From assembly GCA_947477885.1 (NCBI GenBank), contig CANJUD010000003.1, positions 1-64,000 on the forward strand: a stretch of 64,000 nt of DNA, written 5' to 3'. The DNA comes from Bacteroidota bacterium. Its GTDB lineage: Bacteria > Bacteroidota > Bacteroidia > UKL13-3. This document shows, one piece after another, positions 27,071 to 53,120 of this stretch (position 1 is its first letter; each line of letters opens with the position of its first letter). The notes under the pieces were generated by a model, which was given only the letters and a program-made list of their open reading frames with translations, ran no database searches and had not been told where the DNA came from. A program made the translations under genes and the position numbers.

Positions 27071-27085
27071 ACACAGAAAACATTA

Positions 27086-27180
27086 ATTCAGTCAGTCAAT
27101 TGACCAAATTAATGTTAATTCAGTCAGTCAATTGACCAAATTAATGTTAATTCAGTCAGTCAATTGACTGAATTAACATT
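27086..27180. repeat. 32-bp direct repeats ending in a 16-bp perfect inverted repeat
   Basis: Two identical 32-bp copies (27086-27117 and 27118-27149; each starts ATTCAGTCAGTCAATTGACC) are followed by a third copy whose end changes to TGACTGAATTAACATT. Because of that change, 27143-27158 and 27165-27180 are perfect 16-bp reverse complements around GTCAAT. The array sits between the ATPase -7 box and the valS stop. Confidence 0.9.
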
Positions 27181-32076: not shown

Positions 32077-32174
32077 TTTTGTTAATTAAATTGGTTGAGT
32101 AAATCTGCTTCAAATGTAACGACTTTGTGTGAAGTTACCTAAACGTACGAAAGGGATGCATTTGTTACAAGGGA

Positions 32175-32409
32175 ATTTACGATTTACGATTTACGATTGG
32201 CTGACGCCAGAATATTTACGATGTAAGATATACGACATACGATGTGGCTGACGCCTGATTATATACAATGCTGCAAGGCTGAGCGGAGTCCTAGCATGAT
32301 TTAAGAACAAGGATTAACGAATGTTGATTTATGAAGTTTGCTTACGCCTGATTTTTGCGTCGTTAAATGCAATCGTAAATCGTAAATCGTAAATCCCAAA
32401 TCGTACATT
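32175..32409. repeat. Heptamer hairpin element, TTTACGA / TCGTAAA type with TGACGCC cores
   Basis: This element fills the 330-bp gap between porX and the glycosyltransferase. Left: three ATTTACG units from 32175, then GGCTGACGCC at 32199-32208. Next come degenerate units (ATATACG, ACATACG, ATGTGGC) and a second core at 32246-32255. Right: a half core (CTTACGCCTGATT) near 32341 and three AATCGTA-type units from 32371 that complement the left array. Confidence 0.75.
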
Positions 32410-36794: not shown

Positions 36795-36832
36795 ATTTAC
36801 GATTTAGGATTTACGATTTTGCTGACGCCAGA
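36795..36832. repeat. Heptamer array, left flank of the four-helix-bundle gene
   Basis: ATTTACG, ATTTAGG, ATTTACG, ATTTTGC, TGACGCC in unbroken 7-bp phase (36795-36829). It is the inverted counterpart of the array at 37351-37392. Confidence 0.75.
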
Positions 36833-36908
36833 TAGCAAAAAATATTTGTCAGGGATTAGAATCGTAAACTGAAAATCAGTATGTTTGCGTTTTTAATTAT
36901 ATGGATTT

Positions 36909-37268
36909 ATGAAAGAGGAAATAAAATTGAGAACTAAAAAGATTGGATTGCATATTATAATGTTAATAGATGGGTTGCCCAGTAAGGCGTCATCGTGGGT
37001 AATTGCAAAAGAAATTGTGAGGAGTGCTACTTCTATAGGAGCTAATTATAGAGCAGCTTGCAGGGCAAAATCGGATGCAGATTTTATTAACAAACTAAAA
37101 ATAGTTGAAGAAGAAACTGATGAAACCATTTACTGGCTTGAACTTATAGCAGAAATTAAAATGTTACCAAAAGAAAGTATTCAAGTTGTTAAACAAGAAA
37201 CCAATGAGATATTATCTATAGTTGTCGCATCTATAAAAACAGTAAGAAATAAAATAAACAAAACATAG
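36909..37268 (+). CDS. Four-helix-bundle protein (23S rRNA intervening-sequence/S23 family)
   Basis: 119 residues, entirely helical, of the S23/IVP family first seen as ORFs inside 23S rRNA intervening sequences and common as lone genes in Bacteroidota; molecular role not established. Motifs: IVRSATSIGANYRAACRAKS and KLKIVEEETDETIYWLEL, the central conserved helices. The ATG at 36909 precedes MKEEIKLRTKK. The gene is bracketed by inverted heptamer arrays, which suggests that it and its flanks moved or were captured together. It lies divergent from polA. Confidence 0.85.
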   Translation: MKEEIKLRTKKIGLHIIMLIDGLPSKASSWVIAKEIVRSATSIGANYRAACRAKSDADFINKLKIVEEETDETIYWLELIAEIKMLPKESIQVVKQETNEILSIVVASIKTVRNKINKT

Positions 37269-37278
37269 GAAAAGGGGA

Positions 37279-37392
37279 ATTTACGATTTACGATTGCGTA
37301 TAAAGAAGCAATCATATCGGCAAAAAAAATCCAGCGTCAGCAAGTAATCAGGCGTCAGCCAAATCGTAAATCGTAAATCGTAAATCGTAAAT
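37279..37392. repeat. Heptamer arrays, right flank of the four-helix-bundle gene
   Basis: Two TTTACGA units at 37280-37293, a variant core CCAGCGTCAGC near 37331, then GGCGTCA, GCCAAAT and four CGTAAAT units in exact 7-bp phase from 37351 to 37392, ending 7 bp before the next ATG. Confidence 0.8.
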
Positions 37393-37398
37393 ATATTT

Positions 37399-37935
37399 AT
37401 GGAACTAGAATACTACAATACATCAGAACAGCCCTTAAAGCTAAGGAAGCGTATTCGTTTGCAAAAGCAGGTGGCAATTGCTTGTTTAACTGCTTATGTA
37501 TTTTTGGTATTAAATTTTCTGCTAGGCGTTTTTTCGGAACCGGTAATTGCCCAATTTCAATATTGCCCAAATAATTATGCAGGGAGCTATAGAAACAGGC
37601 AGGTAACGGATTTAGAAATATATACGGACAAAGGAAATTTTAGGTGTACCCAAAAAGTGCCCGATGAATTTGAAGAGGGAATGCAATTGAAATTATGGCA
37701 AACGCCATTTTATAGCACTACCTTAAAGTATCAATTGCAAAAGCCCGATGAAGATATATATTTTAGCATGGTAAATATATATATTGTATTCAGTTTTTTT
37801 CCTCTACTGGGCCTGCTGGGAGCTATATTATGTTTGGTTGCAAAAAACGAGATGGCCGAGCGGTATGGTTTTCAACTGTCCATATTTTCGGCAATATTTT
37901 TGGTGTTTACCTGTTTGATTATGGGGTTGATGTGA
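37399..37935 (+). CDS. Membrane protein of unknown function
   Basis: 178 residues. Basic N-terminus, membrane segment at about 25-45, an extracytoplasmic region of about 75 residues with two cysteines (FQYCPNNY, NFRCTQK), then two more membrane segments at about 122-146 and 155-177. No known family recognised. The ATG at 37399 lies 7 bp after a heptamer array, so the array forms its leader. No operon partner. Confidence 0.6.
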   Translation: MELEYYNTSEQPLKLRKRIRLQKQVAIACLTAYVFLVLNFLLGVFSEPVIAQFQYCPNNYAGSYRNRQVTDLEIYTDKGNFRCTQKVPDEFEEGMQLKLWQTPFYSTTLKYQLQKPDEDIYFSMVNIYIVFSFFPLLGLLGAILCLVAKNEMAERYGFQLSIFSAIFLVFTCLIMGLM

Positions 37936-42577: not shown

Positions 42578-42761
42578 ATTTACGATATACGATGTACGAT
42601 GTACGATGTGGCTGACGCAAATATATTTATGATATAGCTGACGCCAGATTTATTTTGTAGATCATATATATAATCAATTTGTTTTAACGAAGAGATTTTT
42701 CGCTCTCCACTTTTCTCCCCTTCTATAATCGTAAATCCTAAATCGTACATCGTAAATATTT
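42578..42761. repeat. Heptamer hairpin element between menB and the glycosyltransferase
   Basis: Left: ATTTACG, ATATACG, ATGTACG x2, ATGTGGC, TGACGCA from 42578, then a second core GCTGACGCC near 42638. Right: AATCGTA, AATCCTA, AATCGTA, CATCGTA from 42727 to 42754, complementary to the left side. Confidence 0.75.
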
Positions 42762-43604: not shown

Positions 43605-43745
43605 ATTTACGATTTACGATGTACGATTTAAGATTTGGCTGACGCCTGATTTATTTACAATGTACGAATTAGGAATAAGGGTTCGGATTTTGGGTGCTGA
43701 CGCCTGATTTTTTTAATCGTACATCGCACATCGTAAATCGTACAT
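43605..43745. repeat. Heptamer hairpin element between menB and the next gene
   Basis: Left, in exact phase: ATTTACG x2, ATGTACG, ATTTAAG, ATTTGGC, TGACGCC (43605-43646), then TGATT. A second GCTGACGCCTGATT starts near 43695. Right: AATCGTA, CATCGCA, CATCGTA, AATCGTA (43715-43742), complementary to the left. It is the clearest example of the family. Confidence 0.85.
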
Positions 43746-50780: not shown

Positions 50781-50913
50781 AGTGGTCAGTAGTCAGTGGT
50801 CAGTAAACAGTGGTCAGTAAACAGTGCCATTCGGCGGCAATTAGTAGTCAGTAGTCAGTAAACAGTGGTCAGTGGTCAGCAACTGATTACTGACCACTGT
50901 TTACTGTTTTACT
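50781..50913. repeat. Heptamer element, AGTGGTC/AGTAAAC type
   Basis: The longest array: AGTGGTC, AGTAGTC, AGTGGTC, AGTAAAC, AGTGGTC, AGTAAAC, AGTGCCA, TTCGG from 50781. A second run (AGTAGTC x2, AGTAAAC, AGTGGTC x2) follows from 50843, and the complementary arm TGATTAC, TGACCAC, TGTTTAC, TGTTTTA ends near 50913 inside the DUF4296 gene's 3' end. Confidence 0.85.
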
Positions 50914-53040: not shown

Positions 53041-53045
53041 AAAAT

Positions 53046-53120
53046 AGTAGACAGTAGTCAGTAGTCAGTGCCATTCGGAAACTGGCGTAAGCTACTGACC
53101 ACTGTTTACTGACCACTAAA
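53046..53120. repeat. Heptamer hairpin element before lptE
   Basis: AGTAGAC, AGTAGTC x2, AGTGCCA, TTCGG (53046-53078) facing TACTGAC, CACTGTT, TACTGAC, CACTAAA (53093-53120). It ends 2 bp before the lptE ATG and so forms its leader. Confidence 0.8.

Follow-up and report, generated by a model that had tools for sequence, protein, structure and literature searches.

S23-family genes are flanked by inverted heptamer arrays and may form with them a two-part, REPIN-RAYT-like genetic system

Results

An S23 gene between two hairpins upstream of polA

The window, by which we mean the whole 64-kb stretch of DNA analysed, carries an open reading frame of 119 amino acids that matches the S23 profiles PF05635 of Pfam (62.5 bits, cut-off 33.8) and TIGR02436 (86.6 bits, cut-off 24), in agreement with the family assignment made in a sequence-only reading of the same DNA. 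The gene and its flanks occupy the intergenic region between polA (start 36757, minus strand) and an open reading frame at 37399; the neighbours are polA and a membrane-protein gene, and the site is outside rRNA. The sequence-only reading had placed the gene between inverted heptamer arrays, and two arms of 39 nt (36795–36833 and 37347–37385) do pair across it with 92% complementarity, GCTGACGCC adjoining both. It had also described a 600-bp unit with long inverted ends, which holds in so far as the arms pair across the gene, but each side also forms a hairpin of its own. The RNA of the left side folds at −21 kcal/mol (z −3.8) and that of the right side at −28.2 kcal/mol (z −6.0), while the whole unit has a fold z of −5.3. 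Because each side is a complete hairpin, the unit is not simply one long pair of terminal repeats.

Table 1 The S23 gene and heptamer units in the window.
Feature	Position	Strand	Description
S23-less unit, ATTTACG	32174–32405	.	array, GCTGACGCC cores, inverted array
Left heptamer unit	36795–36880	+	ATTTACG array 36795–36819, GCTGACGCC core 36821, imperfect inverted partner 36860–36877; hairpin
S23 / 23S_rRNA_IVP four-helix-bundle gene, 119 aa	36909–37268	+	profiles, AlphaFold model, Foldseek
Right heptamer unit	37279–37392	-	forward array 37279–37295; inverted ATTTACG array 37361–37392, 4.6 copies; hairpin
Right heptamer unit cores			GCGTCAGC at 37335, GGCGTCAGC at 37351
S23-less unit, TACGATG/ATTTACG heptamer	42578–42757	.	
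S23-less unit, ATTTACG	43605–43745	.	hairpin z −6.6
S23-less unit, AGTAGTC	50781–50909	.	convergent arms, 8-bp gap
S23-less unit, AGTAGTC type	53041–53119	.	convergent arms, 22-bp gap

Seventeen period-7 arrays were found in the 64-kb window, and none with a period of 5, 6 or 8–12. The ATTTACG hairpin recurs without S23 at three further sites (Table 1), and further heptamer words, among them AGTAGTC, TTAATGG, GGAGTAA and AGTATAA, are dispersed through the intergenic regions. The heptamer of the AGTAGTC unit with the 8-bp gap is that of another S23 gene of the same genome (L002). A 32-bp tandem repeat at 27083–27176 (2.9 copies, 96%) lies outside the heptamer system.

Other repeats were seen beside the heptamers outside the window. 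The lutA–ruvB gap of G000 (C3:243802–244080, L083) holds several copies of GTCCCATCGGGACGAAATATT, direct and inverted, that are unrelated to heptamers. The palindrome CCCGCCGCGGCGGGC, a second dispersed repeat of G002, occurs there inside or beside heptamer arrays (L032, L037, L039 and the lutA–ruvB gap, L089). At the start of contig C18 of G001 (1–820, L081) an N-terminal fragment of polA is repeated in inverted orientation with two heptamer hairpins between, which is either a real inverted duplication or the product of the assembly folding back at the hairpins.

The AlphaFold model of the window protein (pLDDT 95.9) was matched by Foldseek to the S23 structures 2RLD and 2GSC (TM 0.8–0.9) and also to Avd of diversity-generating retroelements (DGR; 4DWL/8UB7). 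The two solved S23 structures contain five chains each, and 2GSC is the S23 protein XCC0516 of Xanthomonas campestris. PMC4990558, citing Lin et al. 2006, describes XCC0516 as a homopentamer. By analogy with these solved relatives, the window protein is probably pentameric too. PF05635 was the sole profile matched by it, and no transposase or nuclease signature was found in S23 by profile and Foldseek searches.

Inverted heptamer arrays flank S23 genes across phyla

The source genome contains seven S23 genes, all of them between inverted heptamer arrays; its sequence was analysed as 400-kb samples together with the window. Their words are AGTATAA (or AAAGACA), AGTAGTC, AGGAATA, TTAATGG, TACGATG, ATTTACG and a TTCTAAA type. 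When the same fixed score was applied to S23 and control genes, an inverted-repeat score of at least 16 across the gene was reached by 7/7 of the former and 4/331 of the latter (Fisher p = 3.5e-12). Whether arrays accompany S23 genes more often than other genes had been put forward as a check on the sequence-only reading; they do, and the heptamer is usually a different one at each gene.

For a scan of GTDB genomes a tighter S23 alignment (A2) was used, the family-wide alignment (A1) being too diverse. It gave 80 S23 loci in Bacteroidota, KSB1, Clostridia, Planctomycetes, Acetothermia, Proteobacteria, Syntrophobacterales and a CPR lineage. At a score of 14, inverted repeats spanned the gene at 47/77 S23 loci versus 7/154 neighbouring controls (p = 3.5e-21). 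Flanking inverted arrays are present at roughly 60–80% of S23 loci across phyla, depending on the threshold, and about 20–35% of S23 genes have no clear period-7 array. When about 128 S23 loci were examined, the spacings between identical 4-mers in their flanks peaked only at 7, 14, 21 and 28; upstream, the rates at these spacings are 39, 42, 28 and 22 per thousand, whereas most other spacings lie at about 4–10 per thousand and controls reach about 11 at spacing 7. The sequence-only reading had staked its proposal on S23 genes elsewhere not lacking such arrays, and the association is real and well supported, the window being a single instance of something general.

The same arrangement was seen by eye at all six plasmid loci that were inspected (five cyanobacterial, one from Riemerella). 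On a Stanieria plasmid (L213) the S23 gene is next to a putative transposase gene, and on a Pseudanabaena plasmid (L215) it lies between cas6 and cas4, each flanked by heptamers of its own. In a minority of S23 genes (L125, L141, L150, L160 and L109), inverted arrays of a period of about 9 (for example TTAGACTTC TTAGATTTT) seem to replace period 7, and this second unit length may accompany certain S23 clades. No clear flanking array was seen at L041 (G002), L240, L245, L248, L249, L255 and L256; these S23 genes may be a functional group apart, for instance one adopted by the host.

The heptamer follows the protein clade

The two arms of one locus share their heptamer (4.67, versus 3.21 between loci). 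Among 99 loci across phyla, the more alike two S23 proteins are, the more alike their heptamers tend to be (Mantel r 0.22, reached in 0 of 1000 permutations). One S23 clade has RGCTNTT in Flavobacteriia, Bacteroidales and KSB1 alike, and other clades have RGCNNCT, AGTCCAT, AGAAGTT or AGTAGTC. It is well supported that heptamer type tracks the S23 protein clade rather than the host.

Mismatches within arrays cluster at certain heptamer positions (variance 3.27, versus 1.49 if they were even), as is expected of a recognised word. With [AG]G set at positions 1–2, conservation is highest at positions 2, 3, 6 and 7 and lowest at 4–5. Counted from three-unit seeds, arrays mostly have 3–6 units, with a mode of 4. 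Since variable positions are out of register between arms, the property shared by the arms is the word and not perfect complementarity. Exact arm pairing was accordingly rejected as a selected feature (register match 0.551, versus 0.535 for shuffled order), although hairpins do form. Seven of the 12 top pairs in protein–heptamer mutual information fall at residues 50–63 (end of helix 2, loop, start of helix 3), a hint only of covariation with the heptamer, as the analysis was exploratory and is confounded by phylogeny.

Arrays depend on S23 at the genome level

In four genomes of the family that lack S23, there are 0–0.6 arrays per 100 kb of non-coding DNA, which equals the shuffled background. 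Two family genomes with one S23 gene have 0.7–0.9 and the S23-rich ones 3–17 on the same scale, the source genome standing at about 17. Array density and S23 are correlated (Spearman 0.88, p = 3e-4), and at the genome level the arrays depend on S23, as seen in 11 sampled genomes of a single family. In two genomes of different genera, 65/75 and 27/35 of the arrays that are not at S23 genes carry a heptamer matching one found at the S23 genes of that same genome (p = 8e-11).

The distribution of ATNTACG was a prediction tested afterwards. Three-unit ATNTACG arrays are present in four of 58 family genomes, namely the three members of the genus and G033, from another genus. Outside the genus, G033 alone has an S23 protein at least 70% identical to that of the window (71%), and the gene has ATGTACG arrays on its flanks. 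The exception is G001, with many ATNTACG arrays and no S23 relative at or above 70% in an 87%-complete assembly.

Alleles, local moves and inversion of S23 units

The sequence-only reading had proposed a search for the empty site next to polA in relatives. S23-free alleles do exist upstream of polA in both congeners, but other heptamer hairpins are present there. Clean empty sites were found elsewhere, at iscS–iscU (empty in G000 and G001, with S23 in G002) and in Halpernia (L147, versus S23 at L123 of Chryseobacterium). In ten genomes of one other genus, the gap between sufB and sufC (names read from the flanking protein sequence) holds an S23 unit in four, a CTRGCNN hairpin in two and an ATAGWCC hairpin in four, always between the stop of the one gene and the start of the other. 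Neither of the two outcomes that the sequence-only reading had named as refuting it was obtained.

Near-identical S23 genes usually share one site, even between species or genera, and for this reason we regard their inheritance as mostly vertical and their mobility as low. Each clade has 1–2 copies, mostly a single one. Moves are nevertheless observed. The S23 genes L003 and L031 are 93% identical and at different sites, which is a relocation, and S23 has hopped to a neighbouring intergenic region in Pedobacter, in Chryseobacterium/Halpernia and in the window's genus. In Pedobacter both the vacated and the target site hold S23-less hairpins of the same word. L005 (G000) and L039 (G002) differ by an in-place inversion: the S23 cassette has turned round between its arms, as judged against the two neighbouring genes. 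No target-site duplication was definable, the flanks between relatives being too divergent. The small mobile element suggested by the sequence-only reading finds a partial match in the occupied and S23-free alleles and the local moves, but not in the missing transposase, the mostly shared sites and the mostly single-copy clades. Its other suggestion, a protein that acts on the hairpins, is the better of the two.

Discussion

A proposed two-part system

We consider it fairly likely that S23 genes and heptamer arrays together make up a single, two-part genetic system that follows a REPIN-RAYT-like logic. A presumably five-fold S23 ring would read a lineage-specific heptamer, repeated about 3–6 times per arm, on a single-stranded or hairpin nucleic acid, either RNA or single-stranded DNA. 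A full unit would consist of arm, S23 gene and inverted arm, and an S23-less unit, dispersed in intergenic regions, of arm, loop and inverted arm. To spread and persist, the S23-less units would rely in trans on a type-matched S23 resident in the genome. Elements with the gene and hairpins without it take each other's place at the same intergenic sites, and S23 occasionally moves to a neighbouring site or inverts between its arms. A ring seated on both arms might protect, pair or copy the unit with host enzymes, copying being ascribed to these since no catalytic domain is recognised in S23. In this way a gene of long residence and mostly vertical inheritance would sustain a population of non-autonomous hairpin repeats. 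Direct recognition of the heptamer by S23 is suggested by sequence comparison and the fit of pentamer to array by structural analogy, and the mode of spread of the repeats is likewise put forward conditionally. The match between heptamer and clade could instead reflect co-inherited linked DNA.

The strongest alternative, which is compatible with the two-part system, is that S23 is a host post-transcriptional (or transcriptional) regulator, that the arrays, retained for their effect on gene regulation, serve it as operators within UTRs and intergenic DNA, and that the arms at S23 genes serve autoregulation. Stable inheritance of S23 genes at one site across genera would suit such a role, as would arrays that adjoin starts and stops and lie within operons such as sufB–sufC, and the structural nearness of S23 to Avd, part of a DGR ribonucleoprotein. 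TAACTGA arrays upstream of start codons were moreover proposed by MacGregor 2015 (PMC4679880) to be sites bound by a post-transcriptional regulator yet to be identified. Unlike conserved operators, however, orthologous sites in close relatives differ in heptamer type or have none, the arms are inverted pairs genome-wide, and entire sets of types change with the S23 repertoire, so that we rate the regulatory reading as unlikely.

An ordinary compact transposon, a 600-bp element bounded by inverted arrays in which S23 acts as the recombinase, would explain occupied and empty sites (iscS–iscU, L123/L147), the relocation between L003 and L031 and the local hops. It is improbable given that S23 has no transposase or nuclease signature, that no target duplication is defined and that near-identical copies are mostly orthologous, with 1–2 per clade; the classical terminal-inverted-repeat form was rejected, its ends moreover being hairpins themselves. 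We find it very improbable that another machine makes the hairpins, with S23 as a passenger. Y1_Tnp genes do occur in many of the genomes, and PMC4679880 cites Mrazek et al. for the proposal that heptamers arise by slippage. But G002 has 11 S23 genes and arrays with no Y1_Tnp, and G023 has 10 Y1_Tnp matches, no S23 and arrays not above background, a distribution on which RAYT was rejected as the driver. Reverse transcriptase, or a DGR, was rejected as well, RVT_1 being absent from the array-bearing genomes G000, G002, G022, G034 and G046, and neither uneven column conservation nor a clade code is expected from slippage. Arrays are frequent enough in the source genome for one to think of chance or an assembly artefact, with arrays as common intergenic filler around S23, but the matched controls, the replication across phyla and the arm–arm similarity within loci leave this explanation, refuted at p below 1e-11, next to no probability.

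The two-part system would have consequences beyond the window. To our knowledge, S23 proteins, with crystal structures since 2006, have no known function; several descriptions of heptamer repeats in bacteria exist with no cause given, and we know of no other REPIN-like repeat system with a transposase-free protein. If the proposal is true, the orphan function of S23 and the origin of heptamer repeats become linked, directly testable questions. A predicted binding word stands beside each S23 gene, and specificity, substrate and movement can therefore be assayed in ordinary laboratory strains; the genes would supply a natural set of protein–word pairs for reading the recognition code, and a REPIN-like repeat system would be carried by a protein that has no transposase domain. 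More tentatively, and with slightly less than even confidence, S23 proteins may be a large sequence-reading class with an evolvable heptamer code that makes and maintains the heptamers of Bacteroidota, Cyanobacteria, Xanthomonas and others, the intervening sequence (IVS) of 23S rRNA being one niche of the same transposase-free, REPIN-like element.

Comparison with known systems

In REPIN-RAYT, a resident low-copy gene, mostly vertically inherited, is flanked by its repeat; the abundance of the repeat depends on the gene, its type is particular to the gene lineage, and the dispersed non-autonomous intergenic units consist of two inverted repeats around a loop (PMC3116915, PMC8049555). The S23 system is alike in its dispersed inverted doublets that depend on a resident gene and in the long vertical inheritance of that gene, some pairs reaching across genera. 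It is unlike in that S23 has no Y1/HUH domain and array presence does not follow Y1_Tnp, in that each arm repeats a partly degenerate heptamer in direct orientation whereas a REPIN has one palindromic REP, and in that S23 is also found on plasmids.

In the 23S rRNA IVS, an S23 open reading frame is enclosed by inverted repeats that pair into a long stem; the IVS has been called a selfish element whose origin is unclear, and in Coxiella tandem GACAGAT heptamers stand just upstream of the S23 start codon (PMC4990558). The window gene likewise lies within stem-forming inverted repeats, but its unit is intergenic and not in a 23S rRNA helix, the heptamer of the S23 system varies by clade, and many units lack S23. 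Avd shares the four-helix-bundle fold with S23 and is part of a ribonucleoprotein; the S23 system differs in needing no associated reverse transcriptase.

Heptamer families have been reported, without an assigned function, as TAACTGA in Beggiatoaceae, Cyanobacteria and Bacteroidetes, with 'no mechanism evident' for transfer (PMC4679880), as GGGAATC in Xanthomonas, mostly in four units, partly degenerate (GGGANTN) and with some inverted pairs, and as GGGGAYT in Nostoc (PMC4692102). They resemble the present arrays in being of period 7, intergenic, partly degenerate, of about four units and sometimes in inverted pairs. Neither paper mentions S23, and the GGGAATC arrays are in the very species whose S23 protein is structure 2GSC. 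The puzzles of TAACTGA, GGGAATC and the Coxiella GACAGAT fit an S23–heptamer link, a connection not made in their papers, and among the open-access journal papers searched none was found that connects S23 with dispersed heptamer arrays. The S23 system is set apart from its nearest relatives because their defining features, a Y1 transposase, a reverse transcriptase and an rRNA site, fail here. What is new is the pairing of S23 with the heptamer, the parts of which are each known separately and which works like REPIN-RAYT.
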